IMG/VR virus record: IMGVR_UViG_3300027797_001483
Location: 1 to 24,805 of that record
Length of the DNA stretch: 24,805 nucleotides
Strand: one strand, 5' to 3'
From: a virus
This document shows positions 5,170 to 23,630 of this stretch, in pieces. Under the pieces are notes generated by a model. The model was given only the letters and a program-made list of their open reading frames with translations. It ran no database searches and had not been told where the DNA came from. The translations under genes were made by a program, and so were the position numbers. The first letter of the stretch is position 1. Every line of letters begins with the position of its first letter.

Positions 5170-5832
5170 ATGCAACCACTCAACCCAATTCCATTATGGC
5201 CTATCTTGATGTACGATTTTCAGTGGGACAACCACGATCAACATCGAGATGAGCTTGCTCAGGTATGTTACGAGCTTGAAGCCAAGAAACATGTCAGCAA
5301 TGTAGCACCAGATGCCAAACGTGGCCTGTATGAGAGCGGCTTTGACTTTGTGTCTACAGATTCGTCTGCTGTTCTTGCATTCAGTCACTGGGCCAAACAG
5401 TGTATGTTTCGTGCTGCTGCTAATGCCAACAAGGCCTATTGGCCCCCAGGTATGAATGTCACAGTAGAGATACACGAATCCTGGTGTCACATCACACGTG
5501 ATGGTGGCTATCATGACATGCATGCCCATCCTGGTAGTTCTTGGTCTGCTATCTATTATGTAGACACCGGAGACATGGGTGCTGCTGAAGATAAAAATGG
5601 TGTCAACAGATTTTACAACCCCAATAATTGTGGGTATGCAGATGCAGGAATGGCCTGGGTCAATCGCAACACCAGTATTGACTTCAGAGCAGAACCTGGT
5701 ATGATGGTGGTTTTCCCCAGTTGGCTACAACATTCTGCTGTGGTTTACCGCGGTACACAGGATCGTATTGTGATTGCACTAAATTGCAGAATCACCAGAT
5801 CTGACCTGTCACAGGTATCATTGTCTATATGA
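5170..5832 (+). CDS. 2OG-Fe(II) oxygenase-like phage protein
   Basis: The protein has 220 residues and resembles the phage/bacterial 2OG-Fe(II) oxygenase group of TIGR02466/PF13759 type. Residues 118-121 read HAHP, followed by a beta-strand IYYV (128-131). Near the C-terminus PSWLQH (184-189) supplies the distal His188, followed by R199 in DRIVIALN. These are the iron- and 2-oxoglutarate-binding elements expected of the double-stranded beta-helix fold. Such enzymes hydroxylate proteins, nucleic acids or small molecules; the substrate is unknown. The ATG at 5170 is 20 bases after a terminator and lacks an obvious ribosome site. The next gene overlaps its stop (ATGA). The HxH rather than HxD spacing should be checked against family members. 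Confidence 0.75.
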   Translation: MQPLNPIPLWPILMYDFQWDNHDQHRDELAQVCYELEAKKHVSNVAPDAKRGLYESGFDFVSTDSSAVLAFSHWAKQCMFRAAANANKAYWPPGMNVTVEIHESWCHITRDGGYHDMHAHPGSSWSAIYYVDTGDMGAAEDKNGVNRFYNPNNCGYADAGMAWVNRNTSIDFRAEPGMMVVFPSWLQHSAVVYRGTQDRIVIALNCRITRSDLSQVSLSI

Positions 5833-8645: not shown

Positions 8646-8762
8646 ATGTTAGAAACAATTTTCTGGTTACTGGTAGGTGCATTTATTGGTTGGAATTTCC
8701 CACAACCCGATTATGCAAAATCAATTCAAGCTAAAATACTAGGCCTGTTTAAGAAATCGTGA
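8646..8762 (+). CDS. 38-residue single-pass membrane peptide
   Basis: ATG 8646 lies one base after the previous stop and the frame runs to TGA 8760-8762. The N-terminal residues 3-16 (ETIFWLLVGAFIGW) are hydrophobic, followed by NFPQP and a short amphipathic basic tail ending LGLFKKS. Short proteins of this layout, with a hydrophobic helix then NFPQP-type turn, recur in T4-like phages as I recall them, with unknown function. The next gene starts at GTG 8759, overlapping this stop (GTGA), which supports real translation here. Confidence 0.65.
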   Translation: MLETIFWLLVGAFIGWNFPQPDYAKSIQAKILGLFKKS

Positions 8763-9331
8763 ATGTTGTTTATATTCACGGGGCTTCGGCCTCCGGGGAT
8801 AGTTTCAACTACATTCGTCACCATTTAAATCATCCTGTTGAAACTGTTATAGAGTACAACAGCACTAATGGATTTAAACATAATCTAAACAGAATGCGAG
8901 AAACTATTTCGCAATCTCGCGGCTCAATTTTTTTTGTAGCTCATAGTCTGGGTGGAATTTATGCACTGCATTTGGCCCAAGACTTTTTCGATCGAACAGC
9001 AGGGGCAGTCACACTCGCTACACCCTACGGTGGATGCCGCGAAGCAGTATTGGCTCAATTCTTTTTACCATTTAATCAACTCATGCGCGACATCAGTCCC
9101 GGCAGTGAACCCATGGCCAGTGTACCCAAGATGCGTGTGCCACGAAATTGGACCAATGTGGTAACCACTTGTGGCAGCAATCCATTTATAACAGCCCCAA
9201 ACGACGGAGTAGTAACTGTGGAAAGTATGAAACATTTACCAGACCAGATGGAATTGGTCTTGTTGGAATCTACTCACTACGAAGTGGTTTTATCACCAGA
9301 AACAGTAAATATTATTACCGACAGAATTTGA
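8759..9331 (+). CDS. Alpha/beta-hydrolase (esterase/lipase-like)
   Basis: This is a 190-residue alpha/beta-hydrolase-fold protein starting at GTG, overlapping the upstream TGA. Residues 3-8 (VVYIHG) give the first core strand and the HG oxyanion-loop motif. The nucleophile elbow is AHSLGG (61-66) with Ser63. The remaining triad is likely Asp149 (NDGVV) and His173 (THYEVV), in correct order and spacing. There is no signal peptide, so it acts in the cytoplasm unless released on lysis. The substrate is unknown; candidates are lipids, acylated polysaccharides or a thioester. It closes the left late block and precedes a sigma70 promoter. Confidence 0.8.
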   Translation: MNVVYIHGASASGDSFNYIRHHLNHPVETVIEYNSTNGFKHNLNRMRETISQSRGSIFFVAHSLGGIYALHLAQDFFDRTAGAVTLATPYGGCREAVLAQFFLPFNQLMRDISPGSEPMASVPKMRVPRNWTNVVTTCGSNPFITAPNDGVVTVESMKHLPDQMELVLLESTHYEVVLSPETVNIITDRI

Positions 9332-10178: not shown

Positions 10179-10262
10179 TGATGCATTCGAATTTTAATCT
10201 AGTGTTACCTGTGTACGGACAGAATCTAGAATAGATAATTCATCAAATTGATAACGGGAAAT

Positions 10263-11246
10263 ATGAAGAAAATTGCATTTGTTACAGGTATGACCGGACA
10301 AGATGGTCCATATCTTGCCAAACTACTTTTGGAAAAAGATTATAAGGTTTATGGACTGGTCAGACGTTACTCAAACCCAAATTTAGATAATATAAAATTT
10401 CTAGGCATTGAAAATGAAGTGGAGCTGATCACCGGAGACATTACAGATGATGGCTGTATGTACCACTTGGTTAAGAGCCTGAGGCCAAATGAATTTTATA
10501 ACCTTGCTGCACAAAGTTTTGTTGGTGCCAGCTGGGATCTTAACAAAATAACCACTGAAGTTAATGCTGTGGGAGTTTTGAATATTCTAAATGCCATCAA
10601 GCAACACAATCCCAGTACCAAATATTATCAGGCCAGTACCTCAGAGATGTTCGGCAACAGCATTGAAATCTCTGGTGGCCAGCAAGACGAAACAACACCA
10701 TTCTGGCCACGCAGCCCTTACGGTGTTGCCAAGCTGTATGCCTATTGGATGACTGTTAACTTTCGTGAAAGTTATAGTTTACATGCATCAAACGGTATTT
10801 TGTTCAATCATGAATCGCCAATTAGAGGTAAAGAATTTGTCACACGCAAGATCACCGACGGTGTTGCCCGTATTAAACTTGGTCTACAAGACAAAATTGT
10901 TTTGGGTAACCTAGATGCCAAACGTGATTGGGGCTTTGCTGGAGACTTTGTTGAAGCCATGTGGTTAATGCTACAACAACCAGAGCCTGGTGACTATGTT
11001 ATTGCTACAGGTGTACAATACACTATTGGTGATCTGTTAGAACGTGCATTTAAATATGCCGGCATCGATGACTGGCAAAGCTATATTGAAACTAACCCAG
11101 CATTTGTGCGCCCTGCAGAATTACACAGCCTGTGCGGTAATCCTGCCAAGGCAGAATCAGTGTTGGGTTGGCAGCGCAAGACTGATTTTGACGGACTTGT
11201 TAAAATGATGGTCGAAGCTGATATTAAACGCTACAGCGGGAAATAA
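10263..11246 (+). CDS. gmd: GDP-mannose 4,6-dehydratase
   Basis: This is a 327-residue short-chain dehydrogenase of the GMD family, converting GDP-D-mannose to GDP-4-keto-6-deoxymannose, a precursor of GDP-fucose, rhamnose and related surface sugars. The NADP-binding GMTGQDG (9-15) carries the GxxGxxG glycines. The catalytic set is Thr126 and Glu128 in STSEMFG with Tyr153 and Lys157 in SPYGVAK. NHESPIRG (182-189) is the family's substrate loop. ATG 10263 is preferred over an in-frame TTG at 10248 because GGGA precedes it at proper spacing. It is shorter than the E. coli enzyme (about 370) through loss of an internal loop near residues 265-280, with the C-terminus intact. Gmd is known in other T4-like phages, where host-surface or fibre glycan changes are suspected. 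Here it separates iscU from iscA. Confidence 0.93.
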   Translation: MKKIAFVTGMTGQDGPYLAKLLLEKDYKVYGLVRRYSNPNLDNIKFLGIENEVELITGDITDDGCMYHLVKSLRPNEFYNLAAQSFVGASWDLNKITTEVNAVGVLNILNAIKQHNPSTKYYQASTSEMFGNSIEISGGQQDETTPFWPRSPYGVAKLYAYWMTVNFRESYSLHASNGILFNHESPIRGKEFVTRKITDGVARIKLGLQDKIVLGNLDAKRDWGFAGDFVEAMWLMLQQPEPGDYVIATGVQYTIGDLLERAFKYAGIDDWQSYIETNPAFVRPAELHSLCGNPAKAESVLGWQRKTDFDGLVKMMVEADIKRYSGK

Positions 11247-11250
11247 TTAT

Positions 11251-11577
11251 ATGATTACCATAACTGAAACAGCAGCAAAGAAGATAGTCAGCAACATTGT
11301 GAAACGTGGCCGTGGCCAAGGTATTCGAGTGGGTGTAAAGACCACCGGCTGTTCTGGTCTTGCTTATGTACTTGAATATCTGGACGAAGCTCCGTGTACA
11401 TGGGACTGGACCGAGTATGAGCGGGACGGTGCTCGAGTTTGGGTAAATGCCAAGGATCTGGCCTACATCGACGGACTTGAAATTGATTATAAAAGACAAG
11501 GTCTTAACGAAGGCTTTGATTTCGTCAACCCCAAAGAGGCAGCACGTTGCGGCTGCGGAGAAAGCTTTACAATCTAA
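11251..11577 (+). CDS. iscA: IscA A-type Fe-S carrier
   Basis: The protein has 108 residues and belongs to the IscA/HesB family, which carries iron or Fe-S clusters to target proteins. The three conserved cysteines are Cys34 in TTGCSGLAY, and Cys100 and Cys102 in the C-terminal CGCGESF. LNEGF and FVNP segments before the end match the family closely, favouring IscA over ErpA or SufA, though the distinction is modest. It has a Trp-containing stretch (about residues 48-62) at the place where family members vary. It begins 4 bases after gmd, and its stop overlaps the start of the exonuclease gene (TAATG), so it belongs to the same transcript. Confidence 0.92.
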   Translation: MITITETAAKKIVSNIVKRGRGQGIRVGVKTTGCSGLAYVLEYLDEAPCTWDWTEYERDGARVWVNAKDLAYIDGLEIDYKRQGLNEGFDFVNPKEAARCGCGESFTI

Positions 11578-12287
11578 TGATAACACAACGATATAATTAT
11601 GCTCCGCTCAGCCGGGAAACCGTCGACGGTAAAAGACATTACTGTTTGCCAAATGGCAAAAAAGTCCCCAGCGTCACAACAATTCTAGATAAAACCAAAA
11701 GCTCGGAAAGTCGAGAAGCTTTAGCTAATTGGAAAAAGCGTGTTGGCGAACAACAAGCCCAGCAGATCACCACAGAAGCTGCTAACCGTGGAACACGCAT
11801 GCACACATATCTGGAACAGTATGTGTTGCAGGATGAAATGAAGCCGTTACCTGGTAATCCATTTGCACACCCTTCGTGGTTCATGGCAGCTGAAATTATC
11901 TTGCAAGGCCTACAACATGCCACAGAATTCTGGGGCACAGAAGTTCCTGTATATTACAGTGGGCTATATGCTGGCACCACAGACTTGGTGGGAGTCTGGA
12001 AAGACCGTCCTGCCATCATGGACTTCAAACAAAGCAACAAGGTCAAAAAACGCGAATATATTGCAGACTATTTCCTACAGCTGGCAGCTTACGCATTGGC
12101 ACACGACGAAATGCACGGTACTGAAATCAACCAGGGCGTTATTTTAATGGCTGTACAGCCCAAACTCTTGGAAGATCAGACCTATACCAAACCACAGTAC
12201 ATGGAATTTGTGATAGAAGGCGACGAATTTAAGTACTGGAAAAACGAATGGATCAAACGTGTAGAGCTCTACTACCAGACAGCATAA
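11577..12287 (+). CDS. PD-(D/E)XK exonuclease (RecB/Cas4-like fold)
   Basis: The protein has 236 residues. The start at ATG 11577 (sharing a base with the iscA stop) is preferred to an in-frame upstream codon inside iscA. The nuclease signature is complete: His76 in RGTRMH, Glu122, Asp136 in GTTDLVG, the core Asp149-Phe-Lys151 in IMDFKQS, and the RecB-family QxxxY motif at Gln168-Tyr172. This is the layout of phage exonucleases and MGME1-like or Cas4-like nucleases acting on DNA ends. Only one Cys is present, so it lacks the Fe-S cluster of true Cas4 and AddB proteins. That matters because it sits directly downstream of iscA. Its likely role is DNA degradation, recombination or replication-end processing. 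Confidence 0.85.
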   Translation: MITQRYNYAPLSRETVDGKRHYCLPNGKKVPSVTTILDKTKSSESREALANWKKRVGEQQAQQITTEAANRGTRMHTYLEQYVLQDEMKPLPGNPFAHPSWFMAAEIILQGLQHATEFWGTEVPVYYSGLYAGTTDLVGVWKDRPAIMDFKQSNKVKKREYIADYFLQLAAYALAHDEMHGTEINQGVILMAVQPKLLEDQTYTKPQYMEFVIEGDEFKYWKNEWIKRVELYYQTA

Positions 12288-12313: not shown

Positions 12314-13900
12314 ATGGCCATTGTACAAATCTCCCGCATCACAAACCGAAAAGGTTTGATAGAAAACTTACCGCAATTGGCCGGTGCAGAACTGGGCTAT
12401 GCAGTAGATACACGTCAATTGTTTATCGGTAACGGAACCTTGCAGGAAGGTGCACCTGTTATTGGCAACACAGAGATACTGACAGAGTTTTCGGATATTG
12501 CTGCACTCAGCAATTATGTGTACAAGGACATTGCAGTAGGGTATGCAGCACAGACAGGTCCCACTACCAGTGATCCTGTGGTGCGTACAGTTCAAGCCAA
12601 ACTGGACGATTTTGCAGATGTCAGAGACTTTGGTGCTGTAGGCGATGGAGAAACAGATGACACAGCTGCCATCAATCGAGCCCTGTTTCAATTGTATTGT
12701 GTAGCTGCCAACACGCAGATTCGTCGCACCTTGTATTTTCCTGCAGGCACTTACAAAATTACAGAAACCATTATTATACCCACTTATGCCAAACTGGTAG
12801 GTGAAGGCGCCAATTGTGCCACGGTGTTTCTGGATACCAGCAGTGATATTTCTAGCCTCAGTGCCTACGTGGCCAGATACGGTGACAGCCTGCAACAGAC
12901 TGGCGTAAACATCGGCAACAATGGTGCCACTGCTCCTGCCAACATTGAAATAAGTTCAATCACATTTGAAACAGCAGAAGCCACAGATGTATTCTTGGTA
13001 GAAGATGCCACACAATGCTATTTTGACAGCGTGAATTTTGTAGGTCCACTGACAGAGGTCGATATCACCAACAACACCAGCACAGACAACATAGCAGGTG
13101 TAAGATTTGCCAGCACAGCAGGTCTGGTGTGTAATCAGATCACATTTGACAAGTGTCGTTTTCAAGGACTCACATACGGTATTGAAACAGACCAGCAAGT
13201 TCAATCTGTCACTGTCAGCAACGGGGCGTTCGTAACCCTGTATCAGGGCATAGTGCTGGGCACAGGCACAGTGGTCAATGGTGGAGCAACTGGTTTCAGA
13301 GCACAGCAAAATCTGTTTGATGCAGTATATGCCGAAGGTATCATCTACGGAGATATCAATCTAAATGTTTCAGCCTACAATGCATTTTATGATGTAGGTA
13401 ATCACTACTCTTCTGGTCCGCAGACCGCTGTCATACTGTTTGACAGTGACAACAATGTGTCCATCACAGACATGTTCAGCAGAGACGATGTGGATGCACT
13501 GACACAGGCCAGAATTACTGTGACAGGATCATCCGCAACAACAGGCACACAGATTCAACTGGGACACTATGCTAGAGAAAATGGTAGAAGTTTTGTGTTG
13601 GGCAACAATCAGACCAATCAGACCATATTCACAACAGATTCTTCCAATTTTAAGGCCTTTCAAATGACCTATACCATTGTACGCGATGTCAGTGTACGAT
13701 TTGGAACCTTGACAGTGACCAAGGTCACTGCTGATGACAGTAGTCTGACCTTGGCCTACACAGATGATTTTACAGAAAATATCACAACTGGCATCACACT
13801 GGCTGTGACTCAGAGCACAAACTTGGCCTTGGTAAAATATTCCAGCACCAACAGCGGTATCATCGGAACTTTAACCTACTCACTTGCACATCTGGCATAA
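12314..13900 (+). CDS. Tail spike/fibre protein with pectate-lyase-type beta-helix
   Basis: The protein has 528 residues. Residues 1-50 form a short N-terminal module containing ELGYAVDTRQLFIGNGT, a pattern common at the start of T4-like fibre proteins and suited to virion attachment. At 103-117 VRDFGAVGDGETDDT is the hallmark opening of the pectate-lyase-3 superfamily, followed by a right-handed parallel beta-helix to about residue 390 and a beta-rich C-terminal part. Such spikes bind and often cut host surface polysaccharides. Catalytic residues cannot be placed from sequence alone. It has its own late promoter element, and the next ATG follows directly after its stop. Transcription from host early promoters is not evident. 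Confidence 0.88.
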   Translation: MAIVQISRITNRKGLIENLPQLAGAELGYAVDTRQLFIGNGTLQEGAPVIGNTEILTEFSDIAALSNYVYKDIAVGYAAQTGPTTSDPVVRTVQAKLDDFADVRDFGAVGDGETDDTAAINRALFQLYCVAANTQIRRTLYFPAGTYKITETIIIPTYAKLVGEGANCATVFLDTSSDISSLSAYVARYGDSLQQTGVNIGNNGATAPANIEISSITFETAEATDVFLVEDATQCYFDSVNFVGPLTEVDITNNTSTDNIAGVRFASTAGLVCNQITFDKCRFQGLTYGIETDQQVQSVTVSNGAFVTLYQGIVLGTGTVVNGGATGFRAQQNLFDAVYAEGIIYGDINLNVSAYNAFYDVGNHYSSGPQTAVILFDSDNNVSITDMFSRDDVDALTQARITVTGSSATTGTQIQLGHYARENGRSFVLGNNQTNQTIFTTDSSNFKAFQMTYTIVRDVSVRFGTLTVTKVTADDSSLTLAYTDDFTENITTGITLAVTQSTNLALVKYSSTNSGIIGTLTYSLAHLA

Positions 13901-16664: not shown

Positions 16665-17279
16665 ATGTTAGAAACAATATGTGATATTATGATAGACGCT
16701 TACAAGCGTAATTGGATTACAAGTCGTGATGGTAATGTCAGCATTCGTCATCACGGCCGAGACCATTTCTATATTACACCAACTGGTGTGCGTAAGCAAA
16801 CTCTGCAGCCGGATCAGTTTAAAAAGATCAGTACCGATGGTTTACTTTGGAAAGAAGAACCTTATACTGATATCAGTGCCAATCTAAAACCCAGCGGTGA
16901 ATTGCCCATGCATCTGGGTCTGCAGAGAAAGATTGATACCGAAGTGCGAGTAATCATGCACTTTCACCCCACATATACCACCGCGGCAATGTACGCAGGT
17001 ATTGACCTACCGTGGCTACTCGACCAATTTCCGGAACTGAGTCGATATACCTCAGTTGGTCCAAATGTTGGTATATTACCACCTATCACACAAGACTTGG
17101 CTGATGCCTGTATCAAGAACATTGGATTAAATGCAGATACAGGTGAGATCAAGTACAACATCATTGGCATGGATAGACACGGCGTTGTTGCCGTTGACAC
17201 AACACCGTGGCGAGCTTATGAGCACATCGAACGATTGGAACACATTTGCAAGATAGTGCTTGCATCAGGAAAATATTGA
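16665..17279 (+). CDS. Class II aldolase/adducin-family protein
   Basis: This is a 204-residue protein of the class II aldolase family, zinc enzymes that split or epimerise sugar phosphates (fuculose-phosphate aldolase, ribulose-phosphate 4-epimerase, MtnB dehydratase). The family pattern is intact: DGNVSIR (22-28) for phosphate binding, PSGE (76-79) with the catalytic acid Glu79, zinc ligands His99 and His101 in HFHPTYT, and His172 in MDRHGVV. The exact substrate cannot be told. AGGAA precedes ATG 16665. It lies between nrdA and iscS, 15 bases after nrdA, and iscS follows one base after its stop. It is probably co-transcribed with them. It is an unusual metabolic cargo for a phage RNR operon. 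Confidence 0.85.
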
Positions 17280-17280
17280 C

Positions 17281-18510
17281 ATGAGTTATGTAATAGATCA
17301 CACAAAATATCCAGTATATTTAGATTACAGTTCAACCACGCCCATGGACCCCTTGGTAGTAGATGCTATGATTCCCTACATGCGTGAGCAGTTTGGAAAT
17401 CCTGCATCACGTAGCCATGCCTATGGATGGACGGCAGAAGAGGCAGTTGAAAATGCCAGAACTCAGGTGGCCCTACTAGTAGGTGCCGATCCTAGAGAAA
17501 TTGTTTGGACCAGTGGTGCTACCGAAAGCAACAACTTGGCCATCAAAGGAGCTGCTCATTTCTACAAGGAAAAGGGCAAGCACATCATTACTGTAAAAAC
17601 TGAGCACAAGGCAGTGTTAGATGCTTGTCGTGAGCTGGAGCGTGAAGGTTTCGAAGTAACTTACTTGCCGGTATTGCCCAATGGCCTGATTGATTTTGAA
17701 GTGCTTGCAGCAGCCGTGCGTCCAGATACTATTTTGGCATCAGTAATGTTTGTAAACAATGAGATTGGTGTTGTTCAAGACATTTCAAAGATTGGCAAAT
17801 TCTGTCGTGACAAAGGTATTGTATTCCACGTGGATGCAGCCCAGGCCACAGGCAAGGTAGAGATTGACTTGCAAACACTGAAGGTAGATTTGATGAGCTT
17901 TTGTGCTCACAAGACCTATGGCCCCAAAGGCATTGGTGCCTTGTATGTGAGCCGCAAGCCTCGCATTCGTATTGAAGCACAGATGCATGGTGGTGGTCAT
18001 GAACGAGGTATGCGTAGTGGTACCTTGGCCACACACCAAATTGTTGGCATGGGCGAATCATTTAGACTGGCCCAACTACACATGCGAACAGAAAATGCAC
18101 GTATAGGTGCATTGCGTGACAGATTGTTGACAGGACTAGAACAAATTGAACAGGTCTACATCAACGGAGACATGAGTCAGCGTGTGCCACACAATCTCAA
18201 CATCAGTTTCAACTATGTGGAAGGCGAAAGCATGATCATGGCCTTGAAACAGCTGGCAGTGAGTTCAGGATCTGCTTGTACAAGTGCCAGCCTTGAACCC
18301 AGTTATGTACTACGAGCCCTGGGTCGCAACGACGAACTGGCACACAGCAGTATCAGATTTACTCTGGGTAGATACACCACTGAATCAGAAATAGACTTTG
18401 CCATTGAATTGATTCAACGCAAGATTGCTGGCCTAAGAGAACTTAGCCCGCTTTGGGAAATGTACAAAGACGGTGTCGATTTAGACACCATTCAATGGGC
18501 TAGTCATTGA
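17281..18510 (+). CDS. iscS: IscS cysteine desulfurase
   Basis: This is a 409-residue PLP enzyme that takes sulfur from cysteine for Fe-S clusters and tRNA thiolation. The start at ATG 17281 is preferred to an upstream TTG because AGGAAAA precedes it. It matches proteobacterial IscS throughout: LDYSSTTP near the N-terminus, [19 protein letters not shown], the PLP-binding Lys211 in AHKTYGPKG, and [13 protein letters not shown]. The persulfide Cys333 lies in [13 protein letters not shown]. The C-terminal segment [16 protein letters not shown], involved in IscU docking in E. coli, is kept. It is therefore a full housekeeping-type (group I) enzyme, not a SufS or a truncated form. It sits between the aldolase and nrdB. 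Confidence 0.95.
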
Positions 18511-18528
18511 CATACAGGAGAATATTAA

Positions 18529-19629
18529 ATGTCAAAAGCACAATACAACTTAAAAACTAAAACAGATTATCTAAATCGCAAGATGTTTCTGGATCCTGCC
18601 GGACCAGTTACAATTCAAAGATTTGAGGAGGTGCGTTATCCTAAAATTGCCAACTTTGAAACCACAGCACGTGGTTTCTTTTGGGTACCAGAAGAGATCA
18701 GTCTTACCAAAGATGCCAGCGACTTCAAAGATGCCAGCGATGCTGTCAAACATATCTTTACCAGCAACCTGCTGCGTCAAACAGCCTTGGACAGTTTGCA
18801 AGGACGCGGCCCTGCCCAGGTGTTTACACCTTGTGTCAGCTTGCCTGAACTTGAAGCTCTAATGTATAACTGGAGCTTCTTTGAAACAAATATTCACAGT
18901 CGCAGCTACAGTCACATTATCCGCAACATCTACAATGTGCCCAAAGATGTGTTCAACACCATTCACGACACTGAAGAAATTGTGGGCATGGCAAGCAGCG
19001 TGGGCCGGTACTATGATCATTTGCACATGATCAACTGCGAAAAAGAATTAGAAGTCCCTGTTAAGGAAAAAGCACACATCAAGGCAATTTGGTTAGCACT
19101 ACATGCCAGCTATGCACTGGAAGCATTCCGTTTCATGGTTTCATTTGCCACAAGTCTAGCCATGGTGGAGAATCGGATCTTTATTGGCAATGGCAATATC
19201 ATCAGTCTAATCCTGCAAGATGAACTGCTACACAAAGGTTGGACAGCTTTCTTGATCAACCAGGTTGTAAAAGAAGATCCACGCTTTGCCGAAGCCAAGG
19301 CCGAGTGTGAAGCAGAAGTATATGAAATCTACAAAGATGTTATCCACGAAGAGAAAGACTGGGCCACTTACCTGTTTAAGATGGGTCCAGTGATTGGTCT
19401 TAACGCCAACATCCTACGCGACTTTGTGGACTACACAGCAGTAGATGCACTGAAACAGATTGGTATCAAGTACCAAGGAACAGCACCGCGTACTACACCT
19501 ATTCCCTGGTTCAACAAGCATACTTCAATTGACAAGAAGCAAACAGCACTTCAGGAAAACGAAAGTACCAACTACGTGATTGGAATTATGTCTCCTGAGT
19601 TAGATTACGATCAATTACCTAGCCTGTGA
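18529..19629 (+). CDS. nrdB: Ribonucleotide reductase class Ia, small subunit
   Basis: This is a 366-residue NrdB, which holds the diiron centre and the tyrosyl radical passed to NrdA. Putative iron ligands are Asp88 (ALDSLQGR), Glu119, His123, Glu198 (ALEAFRF), Glu232 and His235 (QDELLH). The radical Tyr127 is in HSRSYSH. Compared with E. coli, where the first helix pair reads ExxH, here one extra residue gives E-T-N-I-H (Glu119 to His123), so the ligand geometry deserves checking. An 18-base duplication encodes KDASDF/KDASDA at residues 61-72. The C-terminal tail ends with acidic residues and Leu, as needed to dock on NrdA. GGAG precedes ATG 18529. It is complete. Confidence 0.94.
   Translation: MSKAQYNLKTKTDYLNRKMFLDPAGPVTIQRFEEVRYPKIANFETTARGFFWVPEEISLTKDASDFKDASDAVKHIFTSNLLRQTALDSLQGRGPAQVFTPCVSLPELEALMYNWSFFETNIHSRSYSHIIRNIYNVPKDVFNTIHDTEEIVGMASSVGRYYDHLHMINCEKELEVPVKEKAHIKAIWLALHASYALEAFRFMVSFATSLAMVENRIFIGNGNIISLILQDELLHKGWTAFLINQVVKEDPRFAEAKAECEAEVYEIYKDVIHEEKDWATYLFKMGPVIGLNANILRDFVDYTAVDALKQIGIKYQGTAPRTTPIPWFNKHTSIDKKQTALQENESTNYVIGIMSPELDYDQLPSL
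18709..18740 (+). repeat. Short direct repeat inside nrdB
   Basis: Fourteen identical bases (AAAGATGCCAGCGA) occur at 18709-18722 and 18727-18740, an 18-base period. They duplicate the peptide KDASD within residues 61-72 of NrdB. Exact nucleotide identity suggests a fairly recent in-frame duplication. Confidence 0.8.
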
Positions 19630-19635
19630 AATAAA

Positions 19636-19965
19636 ATGCCAATAGAACAAGAATTTGTGTACAAAACCCAAGACGGACAGCCACCCATGCCGTTGCATAA
19701 TTGGATAGAAACTTTACCTGCCAATCAGCAGGCTAAATTTCGTGCTGCGGAATTGCGACAATTTGACTTGAGAGATCAAGCCGTTGCCCGCGGTGATTTA
19801 GTGGTAGTCAAAGATACCGGTGTTGTCAATGACACCGTGTATGTTTGGAAAGATGAAGCCACTGCTGCTCTTGGGAAAGGAACTGATCCTGTGTGGTTGG
19901 AATTTTTTATGCAATACCAAACCGAAAACGGTATAGTATTTGAAACAGTGAATAAATCCGTTTGA
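19636..19965 (+). CDS. Small phage protein of unknown function
   Basis: This is a 109-residue protein 6 bases after nrdB. It has an acidic, Gln-rich helical N-terminal half and a beta-like C-terminal half (LVVVKDTGVVNDTVYVWKDE, about 55-74). There are no Cys residues, no signal peptide and no recognised catalytic motif. The end of the frame abuts an inverted repeat and a sigma70 promoter for the glutaredoxin gene. Co-transcription with nrdB is likely. Confidence 0.65.
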   Translation: MPIEQEFVYKTQDGQPPMPLHNWIETLPANQQAKFRAAELRQFDLRDQAVARGDLVVVKDTGVVNDTVYVWKDEATAALGKGTDPVWLEFFMQYQTENGIVFETVNKSV

Positions 19966-19990
19966 CAAAATAGTTGACGCTGTTGTCAAA
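19961..19990. repeat. Inverted repeat overlapping the glutaredoxin promoter
   Basis: TTTGACAA (19961-19968) and TTGTCAAA (19983-19990) form a perfect 8-base dyad with a 14-base spacer. Its centre falls within the -35 element at 19974-19979. It could be an operator for a repressor or activator, or form a weak hairpin ending upstream transcripts. It has no long T-tract. Confidence 0.55.
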
Positions 19991-20002
19991 AACTGCTATA
20001 AT
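19974..20002 (+). promoter_or_regulatory. Strong sigma70 promoter with extended -10
   Basis: TTGACG (19974-19979) and a perfect TATAAT (19997-20002) are 17 bases apart. TGC just before the -10 adds the extended -10 TGn element. Transcription would begin near 20009, with only a short leader to the glutaredoxin ATG at 20022. This is host-polymerase, early-type control. Confidence 0.85.
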
Positions 20003-20021
20003 TCAAAAATAGGAAATTAAT

Positions 20022-20264
20022 ATGTTAACAATATACACAAAAGATGATTGTCCATATTGCGATCGGGCAAAAGCACTATTAGAAAGTCGAGGTATCGAAT
20101 ACACCACAGTCAATGTAGGTATACGCACAGAAGCCCGTGAATTTTTAGTAGATCAAGGCCTGCGTAGTGTACCACAGGTCTTCAATGGCACAACACTTAT
20201 TCCGGGCGGCTATCAGGGTCTAGCTGCTCAAACAGAAGAATTTTGGACCCAACTTAAAGGATAA
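20022..20264 (+). CDS. Glutaredoxin
   Basis: This is an 80-residue thioredoxin-fold protein with the glutaredoxin active site Cys10-Pro-Tyr-Cys13, the cis-proline Pro51 in SVPQVF, and the GG pair at 62-63 of the glutathione site. It shuttles electrons from glutathione or host reductases to disulfides, most likely the NrdA CxxC tail. The dithiol site argues against a monothiol, cluster-carrying Grx, although it lies among Fe-S genes. AGGAA at 20012 precedes the ATG. It has its own strong promoter, and the next gene follows after 2 bases. Confidence 0.95.
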   Translation: MLTIYTKDDCPYCDRAKALLESRGIEYTTVNVGIRTEAREFLVDQGLRSVPQVFNGTTLIPGGYQGLAAQTEEFWTQLKG

Positions 20265-20266
20265 CA

Positions 20267-20569
20267 ATGAACGAAGGCGAAATCAACACAATCAAGCTCG
20301 CATCAGGCGAAGAAGTTGTGGCAAAGATTATAAAAATTGCAGACGGTATGTTGATTGTCAAACATCCAGTCAGTATCGGGCCAGGTCCCAACGGTGGTGC
20401 TCCAATGCTGATGCCCAGCATGTTTACTGCTGTAATGGATCAGGATGTGATCCTGTATGCATCAGCAATTTCGATGATTGCTCCAACTAGAGAAGATGTC
20501 AAAGTCTCCTACATCAAAGCAACCACCGGCATCGATGTGCCGGCCAAGAAACAAATTATTACAGGTTAA
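20267..20569 (+). CDS. Small beta-barrel (Sm-like?) phage protein
   Basis: This is a 100-residue protein. The N-terminal IKLASGEEVVAKI-IADGMLIVKHPV pattern (about 9-37), two strands joined by a turn with a conserved SGEEV, resembles the first strands of Sm/LSm-like barrels found in phages. A Met/Pro/Gly-rich loop follows (about 38-52), then further strands. No RNA-binding residues can be assigned confidently, so the Sm-like label is tentative. It is coupled to glutaredoxin (2-base gap). Its TAA and the stop of the opposing methyltransferase gene interlock within the four bases TTAA, with a terminator hairpin 96 bases beyond. Confidence 0.65.
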   Translation: MNEGEINTIKLASGEEVVAKIIKIADGMLIVKHPVSIGPGPNGGAPMLMPSMFTAVMDQDVILYASAISMIAPTREDVKVSYIKATTGIDVPAKKQIITG

Positions 20570-21297
20570 GGCTTAGAGAATAAGAAAAACAGTCTATCCT
20601 GATCCTGTTTTACAGTTTCAAGTGTCAGATTGTAATTCTTAGCAAACTCGTAGGCAATTTCAAAGGACCATGGGAAAATTTCAACCCATGGTCCATTTTT
20701 ATGATCATGTCCTGGGTTAACACGCATCCATAGCTTTCCGCCTGGTGCCAACAGATTGACTGTGGCACCAAAACGTAGTTCAATATCCTCACGGCTGTTA
20801 AAGTTGATGGAGCCTAGGGCAATAATGTGATCGTATGATTCAGGTTCTACTCGATAGTCTAAAATATCTACCTGGAAATCTGCACAGTTGTTGTAGGGAT
20901 CAATGCCTACCAGGTTAGGAATACGTCCCTTAAAAGGATTGTATCCACAGCCTACATCCAACACCCGTTTTGGGTCGGCACGGCAAATTTCTTCTGCAAT
21001 ACGATAGCCTGTCCATTGATACTGCTCAGTACGTGGCTTCCACACTTCTCCAAAGAACCATGTTAGGTAGCGTTGATCGGTGCGTTCTGCTAGATCACCA
21101 ACGGTGCCTTCCAGTTCAACAGCTACACCAAATGTCGACTCTAGTTTTTGTATCAGCTTCTTCTTACGTGCAGGCGTCCATGGCAAGTCATCCAATTTGC
21201 AATCATGTTTGATGGTATGCCTAACATACTCGTACTTGTCAATATTAAATGTTTCTTGCAAATTTTCTTCAATACACTTCAAAATTTTACTATTCAT
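20566..21297 (-). CDS. Class I SAM-dependent methyltransferase with an unusual N-terminal domain
   Basis: This is a 243-residue protein and the only minus-strand gene. Residues 112-118 (VLDVGCG) are SAM-binding motif I, VGID (130-133) gives the ribose-binding acid, and DILD (144-147) is the next motif. The methyl acceptor is unknown. The N-terminal 75 residues look helical and resemble an acyl-carrier-like fold: KLIQKLESTFGVAVELEGTVGDLAE parallels the second half of ACPs. The phosphopantetheine Ser appears to be replaced, so it would be a degenerate carrier-like or docking domain. It converges on the glutaredoxin operon with overlapping stops. A 10-bp hairpin in its coding sequence acts in the opposite direction. 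Confidence 0.8.
   Translation of the reverse strand: MNSKILKCIEENLQETFNIDKYEYVRHTIKHDCKLDDLPWTPARKKKLIQKLESTFGVAVELEGTVGDLAERTDQRYLTWFFGEVWKPRTEQYQWTGYRIAEEICRADPKRVLDVGCGYNPFKGRIPNLVGIDPYNNCADFQVDILDYRVEPESYDHIIALGSINFNSREDIELRFGATVNLLAPGGKLWMRVNPGHDHKNGPWVEIFPWSFEIAYEFAKNYNLTLETVKQDQDRLFFLFSKP
20665..20700 (+). terminator. Terminator-like hairpin inside the opposing methyltransferase gene
   Basis: GGACCATGGG (20665-20674) and CCCATGGTCC (20685-20694) form a perfect 10-bp stem with a 10-base loop, followed on the plus strand by ATTTTT. The T-run orientation ends plus-strand transcripts leaving the grx operon, 96 bases past its last stop. On the minus strand the same bases encode PWVEIFPW of the methyltransferase, and only a short T-run follows. 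Confidence 0.75.
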
Positions 21298-21346
21298 TAG
21301 TTTTTTCTCTAAAAAGGTAAATAAAATTACAAAGATGCAAAAAATT

Positions 21347-21375
21347 TTGTTGTCTTTGTTTTATTCAACTATATA
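21347..21375 (+). promoter_or_regulatory. Candidate AT-rich sigma70 promoter for the receptor gene
   Basis: TTGTTG (21347-21352) and TATATA (21370-21375) have 17-base spacing, followed by AAGGA at 21391 and ATG at 21402. An overlapping alternative is TTGTTT (21356-21361) with TATATT (21380-21385), spacing 18. The divergent intergenic stretch 21298-21401 is very AT-rich, so the exact element is uncertain. Confidence 0.4.
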
Positions 21376-21401
21376 TCATTATATTTTCACAAGGAACAAA
21401 A

Positions 21402-22370
21402 ATGAAACGTATTATCTCTGCGCTATTGCTAACTATAGCAATGGCACCAGCCTTTGCCTGGGAACCCGTAAAGCCCATCACTGTTGTGATTGGCAACCCA
21501 CCTGGTGCCGGCAACGAAATAGCATTTAGAAAGTTGGCCAGTATTGTTGAAAAACAAAACCCAAAAATCAACTTTATCATTCAAAATCAACCTGGCGCAG
21601 ACAGTGTGATTGCAATGAACAGTTTTGCCAAAGCAGCACCGGACGGGTATACTGTTGCACTTCCTAGTCATATGAGTACATTTGTCACCAACGATATCTG
21701 GCAGAAGTCTGTTAAGAAATTCAATTACGACGAATTTACTCCTGTAATGACAATTGGTAAGAGTCCGTTGGTTTTAGTAGCCCATGCCAAAAGCTCTGTA
21801 AATACACCCGAAGACTTTGTCAAGCGTATACAAGCAACAAAAGAACCTGTCAATGTGGCAATTGGTGGTGGTGCACATCGTACAGCATTTGAATATCTCA
21901 TGTTTAAAAACAATGGAAATGCTGACATGGTCAAAACCATCAACTTCAACGGTCCGCTGCAGGCAGTGACCAGTGTGGCCAAAGATGCAGGTGGTACCGA
22001 GTTTGGTATTATGCCTATTGCTGTAGCTAAACCTCTGGTTGAAGCTGGCAAGGTAAAGGCCATTGGATTCACTGGCACCCGCACAATGCCACAATTTCCT
22101 ACAGTGCCCTTGCTGCAAACAGTGGCACCGGGTATTGAAGTGTATGCTGCTTGGGCACTTGTATTACCACCCAATACTGCCCGAGAAATTGTTGATTGGT
22201 ATTTGAAACTGTTTGTACCGGCTGCACAAAGTAAAGAGTACCAAGAATGGATACATCAGCAGGTTGTATTCTTAGAAGATAAAGAATTAACACCTGCAGG
22301 ACTGCGTAGACAAATGGAAACATTACGCAAGACTTTTATGCCGGTGTTGGAAACTGTTAAATTGGATTGA
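21402..22370 (+). CDS. TctC/Bug-family periplasmic solute-binding protein
   Basis: This is a 322-residue protein, the typical length of Bug receptors for tripartite tricarboxylate transporters. Residues 1-19 are a Sec signal peptide with an AFA|W cleavage site. The mature part shows the family layout: a WEPVKPITVVIG start, PPGAGNEIAFR, the IQNQPGADSVIA strand and DGYTVALP, then ending ETLRKTFMPVLETV. These proteins bind carboxylates (citrate, tricarboxylates, amino or aromatic acids) in the periplasm and pass them to a TctAB-type membrane pair. No TctA or TctB gene is in this window. The ligand cannot be told. AAGGAAC precedes the ATG. The family is abundant in Burkholderiales, suggesting host origin. 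The gene heads a three-gene unit. Confidence 0.92.
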   Translation: MKRIISALLLTIAMAPAFAWEPVKPITVVIGNPPGAGNEIAFRKLASIVEKQNPKINFIIQNQPGADSVIAMNSFAKAAPDGYTVALPSHMSTFVTNDIWQKSVKKFNYDEFTPVMTIGKSPLVLVAHAKSSVNTPEDFVKRIQATKEPVNVAIGGGAHRTAFEYLMFKNNGNADMVKTINFNGPLQAVTSVAKDAGGTEFGIMPIAVAKPLVEAGKVKAIGFTGTRTMPQFPTVPLLQTVAPGIEVYAAWALVLPPNTAREIVDWYLKLFVPAAQSKEYQEWIHQQVVFLEDKELTPAGLRRQMETLRKTFMPVLETVKLD

Positions 22371-22371
22371 T

Positions 22372-22989
22372 ATGAAATATATTTTTATGGCCGGTGCACC
22401 CGGTAGCAAGTGGTCCAGCGTGGCCAAGAACATCTACTTTAGTGCCGACATTGATCGATCAGATGCCAGCTCACAACGCGAGTACTGGCACGATGCATCT
22501 GGTGTTAATCAACTGATGCACATGGGTGCATACTTTGACCCAGGCATGGAAATGGATCTACCTGTGGATCTTGCCCAGCACAGTCGAGAGCATTTGGAAC
22601 AACTGTTCGATAGTGCATTTGCCACAGACGGAACTGGCATTCGCATTATCAAGAGTCACATATTTGCACACCATATCAACTTTATTAAAGCAACATGGCC
22701 GGATTGTGCTATCATACTTGTACACAGATCTGACGATGCTTGCCTGGGCTGGTGGGTCAAGTGCGGACACTTTGACATCACATACCCCAAGTATGATAAG
22801 TATTACGTAAACTTAAGAAACATGGCCGGCATCATTGCTCAACAAAATGCCGATATACTAACAGCATGGAGAGATAGTTACTTGTTGGGTAACAATCGTA
22901 TCCTGGCAACAACTCTCAAAATTGCACAGCCACCTGCAGAGTACTATCAAGAATATAAAGAATCAGACATCGAGGTAACAGTAATATGA
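22372..22989 (+). CDS. Sulfotransferase-like P-loop protein
   Basis: This is a 205-residue protein. GAPGSKWSS (8-16) is a P-loop-like phosphate-binding turn after a first strand, and the order of this loop, RIIKSH (about 92-97) and ILVHRSDDACLGWW (about 114-127) fits the sulfotransferase superfamily's PAPS-binding elements. Nucleotide kinases are the alternative. Proteins of this type are, as I recall, common in T4-like cyanophages, with unknown substrate. It starts one base after the receptor gene, and its stop overlaps the oxygenase start (ATGA). This suggests the two act on the same target. No signal peptide. Confidence 0.75.
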   Translation: MKYIFMAGAPGSKWSSVAKNIYFSADIDRSDASSQREYWHDASGVNQLMHMGAYFDPGMEMDLPVDLAQHSREHLEQLFDSAFATDGTGIRIIKSHIFAHHINFIKATWPDCAIILVHRSDDACLGWWVKCGHFDITYPKYDKYYVNLRNMAGIIAQQNADILTAWRDSYLLGNNRILATTLKIAQPPAEYYQEYKESDIEVTVI

Positions 22990-23630
22990 CGAGTGCATGG
23001 GACACAACTAAAAAACGCAGTCGGTATCACTTTGACCACACATACTTTGATCCAGATCATGATCGTGTAGTCAGACTAGGATTTATAACTCCTTGCTGGG
23101 ACACGGAGCTAGCGAGCATCATAGAGAATTCCAAGGCCGCAACTTGGCGCACACGAGGTGCGGTAGGTAAATCACGTCCCGAGGCGGAGTTGGCAGCCGA
23201 AGACTACGATCTTGAACGCGAAGGCTATGGTGCGGATTATGTTATTACTAATCTGAACTGGTCAATTCCTCCGGTGCTGCAAGAGATAGCTGATCGCTTT
23301 GCCTTGGATGATGCCATGGTTCGTATACATGTACAACAACCAGGACAAGTGTGGAACTACCATTTAGACAAGCTGGAAAAATGGAATCCAGAAAACCCTG
23401 ACTCAGTATTGCGTGTGCAGGTACAGCTGACTGATTGGATGCCTGGCCAGTTTTGGAACTATGGCAACTATCAACACAGCATGTGGCGTGCCGGCGATGT
23501 CACTACATTTGACTGGCAGAATATTCCACATGCCACAGCCAATGCCAGCCACGGTCCCAGAGTTACCCTGCAAGTGACTGGTGTTCAAACTGCTGCCACA
23601 CAAGCATATCTCAAAACTCTTGCTGTTTGA
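22986..23630 (+). CDS. Fe(II)/2-oxoglutarate oxygenase-like protein
   Basis: This is a 214-residue protein whose ATG overlaps the previous stop. It carries a textbook Fe(II)/2OG triad: His126-x-Asp128 in NYHLDK, distal His182 in NIPHATAN, and Arg192 in GPRVTLQVTG exactly ten residues later to bind 2-oxoglutarate. The strands between (LRVQVQLTDW, AGDVTTFDW) fit the double-stranded beta-helix, resembling aspartyl/asparaginyl hydroxylase-like enzymes. It differs from the other oxygenase at 5170 in motif and layout. The substrate is unknown; the coupled sulfotransferase-like gene hints at shared modification of one target. It is complete, ending just before a late promoter. Confidence 0.82.
   Translation: MTSAWDTTKKRSRYHFDHTYFDPDHDRVVRLGFITPCWDTELASIIENSKAATWRTRGAVGKSRPEAELAAEDYDLEREGYGADYVITNLNWSIPPVLQEIADRFALDDAMVRIHVQQPGQVWNYHLDKLEKWNPENPDSVLRVQVQLTDWMPGQFWNYGNYQHSMWRAGDVTTFDWQNIPHATANASHGPRVTLQVTGVQTAATQAYLKTLAV

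Follow-up and report, generated by a model that had tools for sequence, protein, structure and literature searches.

Why would a nutrient importer's solute receptor be encoded by a bacteriophage when no membrane partner lies beside it? The window analysed here is the whole IMG/VR record IMGVR_UViG_3300027797_001483 of 24,805 bases, a 24.8-kb fragment of a phage genome. The initial annotation had read one of its genes as a phage-borne TctC/Bug receptor with no TctA or TctB nearby, and the profile and structural data bear this out. The protein belongs to the Pfam TctC family PF03401 (E = 5.5e-25, 88.8 bits for a cutoff of 27), and searches of PHROGs and NCBIfam returned nothing for it. An AF2 model built from 26 family members had a mean pLDDT of 89.5, and the 17 best PDB matches of this model in Foldseek were all receptors of tripartite tricarboxylate transporters (TTT), with TM-scores up to 0.85 and E-values between 1e-20 and 1e-25, placing the protein in the Bug subtype of the two-domain periplasmic binding protein fold. 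Its matches among solved TTT receptors were TphC, Bug27, BugD, MatC, and terephthalate-binding protein. The dN/dS of the gene against its close relatives was 0.07–0.14, indicating purifying selection. Because of this low dN/dS, the pLDDT of the model, and the fold match to TTT receptors, the open reading frame is not a chance one.

Table 1. Features of the receptor locus, with coordinates in the window
Feature	Position	Strand	Basis and remarks
Divergent SAM-dependent methyltransferase, 243 aa, DVGCG motif	20566..21297	-	Weak Pfam Methyltransf_23 match, alignment, neighbourhood counts
AT-rich divergent intergenic region, 104 bp	21298..21401	.	Probable promoters of both arms
Swappable transport slot	21300..22371	+	TctA and a long TTT-type receptor instead in sister phages L323-L328 and L332
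TctC/Bug-type solute receptor, predicted periplasmic	21402..22370	+	322 aa, ATG start; Pfam, model, fold search, alignment, tree
Sulfotransferase-like protein, PAPS-type P-loop (GAPGSKWSS)	22372..22989	+	Pfam Sulfotransfer_3, alignment; start 1 bp past the TctC stop
Putative Fe(II)/2-oxoglutarate oxygenase	22986..23630	+	Conserved H126-x-D128 ... H182 ... R192; 4-bp overlap with the sulfotransferase gene

The receptor resembles the TctC/Bug proteins TphC (7nds), TBP (8hka), BugD (2f5x), MatC (6hke), and AdpC (5oei) in Pfam profile, fold, and a putative signal peptide, with TM-scores of 0.82–0.85 to the ligand-bound members. Its N-terminus, MKRIISALLLTIAMAPAFA followed by W, looks by eye like a signal peptide that has an AxA site but no lipobox: approximately residues 1–19 comprise a basic start, a hydrophobic core, and an AFA/W cleavage site, as judged from the sequence only. 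A basic and hydrophobic leader ending ahead of W(Q)xP recurs in the alignment of the phage TctC family, and the receptor is predicted to be exported to the periplasm. The glycine loop G35-x-G37-N-acidic, located at the site of the proximal carboxylate pincer of TphC (PMC8556258), is retained in form, and the distal-site residues differ from those of cellular proteins. Unlike the solved TTT receptors, to which it is only about 20% identical, the phage protein has Glu39 in place of Asp and invariant D67, H159, and P185, and it lies in a phage operon together with a sulfotransferase and an oxygenase. Glu39 was found in 50/50 phage TctC proteins and Asp in 21/21 cellular ones; D67, H159, and P185 do not vary among the phage proteins, and the conserved residues of cellular proteins are different. 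Since HMMER and MAFFT disagreed by about two positions around H159/R160 in the pocket alignment, we limit our claims to the substitutions E39, D67, and P185 and the invariance of H159. The function might have changed because these conserved residues depart from the cellular ones, and the pattern suggests a ligand that is conserved and specific to the phage proteins.

The receptor is encoded by a genuine phage genome. A tail spike, the large and small subunits of a class Ia ribonucleotide reductase (RNR), and a glutaredoxin are encoded upstream, and a PAAR protein downstream. The gene of the T4-type capsid protein gp23 was found in 13 of the 29 larger records bearing the TctC family. The contig is that of a T4-like phage, with phage genes on either side of the receptor. 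We rejected a chimeric assembly at 21300–21400, which the initial annotation had named as an alternative, because the identical junction recurs in at least six independent contigs: L002–L006 and L008, from different metagenomes, share the methyltransferase–TctC junction with TctC proteins 87–100% identical, and four of the six share the TctC–sulfotransferase junction as well. A search of the record at a threshold as permissive as E ≤ 1 detected no TctA, and the open reading frames adjoining the receptor resemble neither TctA nor TctB; the complete phage could still encode TctA because the record is only a 24.8-kb fragment. Elsewhere in the window, genes for a class II aldolase and a class-V aminotransferase lie between the large and small RNR subunit genes (16665–18510), and further 2-oxoglutarate-oxygenase, alpha/beta hydrolase, nucleotide-sugar epimerase, and tail-spike-like genes occur at 5170–5832, 8759–9331, 10248–11246, and 12314–13900.

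The family is widespread among uncultivated phages. A scan with the single protein identified 31 viral loci, and an alignment-based scan identified 220 viral stretches encoding TctC relatives, 80 of which were kept. TctC was present in 50/50 larger viral records searched, reaching five copies in one 337-kb phage record. INPHARED (50,697 phage records) contained no TctC relative, no methyltransferase relative, and two weak matches for the sulfotransferase. The only notable match among annotated phages was a sulfotransferase relative, 34% identical, at 11239–11712 of a marine single-cell virus record (MH319720.1, AG-345-D19). A pattern scan of 84,980 prokaryote species genomes found no close cellular relative of the receptor. 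Likewise, none was found with a phage TctC profile among 300 Burkholderiales and 398 Pseudomonadota genomes, where cellular proteins reached a maximum of about 120 bits; the best 7 or 5 candidates were scored per genome, so a cellular sister at greater distance might have escaped detection. In the maximum-likelihood tree, the window protein sits deep within a phage-only clade of 50 rows (support 100/98), which together with two paralogues comprises 52 rows (100/99) and is placed on a long stem. Given this clade and the lack of a close cellular relative in the genomes scanned, the receptor belongs to a phage-only lineage and is neither a recent host capture nor a gene derived from, and close to, one of the current host. 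The expectation of the initial annotation that a Bug-family tree would name the donor genus failed for this reason. Some other phage TctC copies fell outside the clade, one of them beside a cellular gene, and phages have therefore probably acquired TctC more than once, although the long branches leave the number of acquisitions unsure.

The receptor gene also belongs to a conserved operon. Neighbour clustering with profile annotation placed a SAM methyltransferase within six genes of TctC in 86/91 distinct contigs. A sulfotransferase-like gene was near TctC in 80 of the 91, most exceptions being contig ends, and the putative oxygenase in 50. In all 66 adjacent pairs, the spacing between TctC and the sulfotransferase gene was −4 to +2 bp (−4 in 45), and in most contigs the sulfotransferase gene shares 4 bp with the oxygenase gene. 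The remaining neighbourhood depends on the phage, with RNR genes in the window and phoH-like and other genes elsewhere. This varying outer neighbourhood implies that the linkage of the module does not merely reflect overall relatedness; the loci were selected as the query's best matches, so the sample is biased. The identities of the three enzymes are putative, resting on weak Pfam matches or motifs. Pfam Sulfotransfer_3 matched the window gene with E = 2.5e-4 and its counterpart in L042 with 1.3e-6, above the cutoff, and the oxygenase is assigned by motif only because neither Pfam nor NCBIfam matched it. A ribosome-binding-site-like aaggaac precedes the TctC start codon, and promoter-like matches in the 21298–21401 region were no commoner than in shuffles. 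Many modules, including L042 (4744–6004), L051, L058, L243, L258, and L299, have two genes inserted between the methyltransferase and TctC genes: one for a PaaA/ferritin-like protein of 232 aa, the other for a 186-aa class-I glutamine amidotransferase/Peptidase_C26 protein. The initial annotation was thus correct about the phage-borne receptor and missed both the conserved operon and the widespread phage family.

What the receptor might do is indicated by the genes that take its place. The seven loci of the sister phages, whose NrdB is 83–92% identical to that of the window, have the neighbourhood of the window, namely NrdB, mostly the 109-aa, glutaredoxin, and 100-aa genes, and then the methyltransferase. 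Nucleotide homology between the window and L323 extends over 18535–21299 at 76%, breaks, and returns at 73% exactly at the sulfotransferase start (22372). These breakpoints mean that the TctC gene with its leader has been exchanged for TctA and a receptor. Several sulfotransferase-seeded loci without TctC had a 480-aa protein and a secreted protein of 350–380 aa in its place. The former is TctA by Pfam (284–285 bits in L290 and L292). The latter has a weak TctC Pfam match at best, and the first 17 PDB matches of its AF2 model (pLDDT 91.5) were all TTT receptors with TM-scores of 0.50–0.60. A TctA-seeded scan retrieved 30 viral loci, including the seven of the sister phages (L323–L328 and L332), all of which have the long receptor immediately or one gene downstream, and most of which also have a sulfotransferase or methyltransferase. 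L315 combines TctA, the long receptor, a phage-type TctC (205 bits), and the sulfotransferase in a single gene run. TctA, absent from the window, is thus found in the same slot of sister phages and ahead of a phage TctC. Among 60 methyltransferase-seeded loci with enough sequence, 46 had TctC, eight TctA with a receptor, one a receptor alone, and five neither. We count these roughly 5/60 modules without a recognisable receptor against an explanation by transport, as we do the result that TctB was not detected in 13 slot-type records. When 200 Burkholderiales were searched at E ≤ 1e-100 for a cellular source of the slot TctA, none was found with this query, which had no positive control. In one phage (L321, 4116–9256), the pair of TctA and long receptor is tandemly duplicated beside oxygenase and sulfotransferase genes.

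Other TTT parts occur in further records. An extra TctA was present in 3/50 larger TctC-bearing records. In the 158-kb record G008, TctB and TctA have a tryptophan halogenase gene on one side and phage genes on the other, and this TctA shares 70–75% identity with proteins of Burkholderiales (Bordetella, Achromobacter, Variovorax, Polaromonas, and Rhodoferax). In the loci inspected, the Burkholderiales TctB–TctA pair resembling that of G008 had no adjoining TctC. This likeness is the sole hint to a host, and it is indirect, pertaining to a relative and not to the window phage. The phage halogenase gene directly upstream of the pair (L119, 7100–11063) scored 285 bits in Pfam. In the 192-kb phage record G026 (L118, 1420–3645), a very divergent TctA and a secreted TctC-like protein adjoin a T4-type RNA ligase-like gene.

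We consider it probable that the phage contributes the receptor component of a tripartite carboxylate importer and depends on a TctA/B of the host, while relatives bring their own permease. The TTT solute receptor would be made during infection from an operon of TctC, sulfotransferase, and oxygenase, with the methyltransferase gene divergent from it. Once exported, it would capture a carboxylate-type ligand in the periplasm and pass it to a TctA/TctB permease that the host is assumed to encode, so that the infected cell might take up a solute chosen by the phage. Some relatives encode a permease at this position of the operon. The imported compound, or a product derived from it, is the probable substrate of the sulfotransferase, oxygenase, and methyltransferase. 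A transport function of the phage receptor is likely. The suggestion of the initial annotation that the receptor could alter import gains support from the TctA and TTT-type receptor in the same slot of sister phages and from TctB–TctA in another relative. Together, the conservation of the operon and the alternatives in the slot suggest that these viruses control what infected bacteria import.

The receptor could instead have lost its role in transport. During infection, it might bind a ligand or some component of the host surface and so serve in the periplasm as a sensor, decoy, or exclusion protein, with the operon enzymes modifying the cell surface. The sulfotransferase, methyltransferase, and SGNH-like neighbours would fit surface modification, the residue pattern of the receptor is specific to phages, and non-transport roles have been proposed for Bug proteins (PMC5812351). 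However, its exact exchange for a TctA permease and receptor is hard to explain without transport, and another phage carries TctB–TctA; we regard this alternative as unlikely. Still less probable, in our view, is a module that makes or scavenges a specialised metabolite, such as a carboxylate bearing sulfate or methyl groups or a precursor of hypermodified nucleotides, whose product or precursor the receptor re-imports. The frequent glutamine-amidotransferase (Peptidase_C26) and PaaA/ferritin-like insertions, the PP-loop-ATPase-like genes flanking other phage TctC copies, and the existence of a sulfolactate TTT system (table in PMC5812351) speak for it, but no pathway could be reconstructed, and the added genes differ among phages. 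The idea that a host Bug gene was recently picked up as a chance passenger (moron) of no lasting benefit, plausible as an accident given the extreme abundance of Bug genes in Bordetella, Cupriavidus, and their relatives (PMC5812351), is scarcely credible against the long-stemmed phage-only clade, the lack of a close cellular relative in the genomes scanned, the synteny kept in diverged phages, and the dN/dS of about 0.1.

The reading that a phage receptor serves a host permease has a precedent in receptor-only phage uptake by cyanophage PstS, likewise a periplasmic receptor of a nutrient importer supplied by the phage (PMC10976474). Phage nutrient receptors are known mainly from this case. Cyanophage pstS groups with genes of its hosts and has no conserved gene order (PMC10976474), whereas the phage TctC is private to phages and keeps strong synteny, with a permease added in sister phages. 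The receptor would therefore work as PstS does, yet not be recently host-derived, given the phage-only clade and the absence of a close cellular relative in the genomes scanned. In Bordetella and its relatives, orphan TctC genes far exceed TctA, and a TctAB that serves several receptors promiscuously has been put forward as a hypothesis (PMC5812351); a phage receptor with a single host permease offers a natural test of why some bacteria have many orphan TctC and few TctA. If true, a phage-evolved carboxylate receptor, set in a conserved operon and exchangeable with a receptor–permease pair, would imply that many large phages shape the carbon uptake of heterotrophic, probably betaproteobacterial, hosts.

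A broader reading, which we offer tentatively as a possibility, is that widespread large T4-like phages carry a phage-evolved import-and-modify operon for one class of carboxylate (or sulfonate), with an interchangeable slot (receptor only, or receptor and permease) coupled to enzymes for sulfation, hydroxylation, and methylation. During infection, the bacterial hosts of these phages would then gain a new route of uptake.

Parts of TTT systems have surfaced on uncultivated phages before. The passages available to us mention in passing a tctA domain match on a SUP05 viral contig (PMC4164917, and again in the review PMC6359870) and "tricarboxylate transport" genes around a myovirus norB/nirK island (PMC8115048), and UniProt gives the automatic names 'PBP2_Bug_TTT' and 'Bordetella uptake protein' to proteins of uncultured Caudovirales. 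In the open full-text literature, with most subscription papers outside the search, we found no description of the conserved operon, the slot replacement, or the phage-only clade.

Paralogous phage TctC copies or TctA are flanked elsewhere by proteins of about 410–470 aa with PP-loop ATPase-like motifs (SGGxDS), as in L120 (12240–14743 and 16810–18132), L027, L110, L111, and L117 (2694–3926). Those tested had no Pfam match, and these genes together with the TctC paralogues possibly form a second TctC-associated module.
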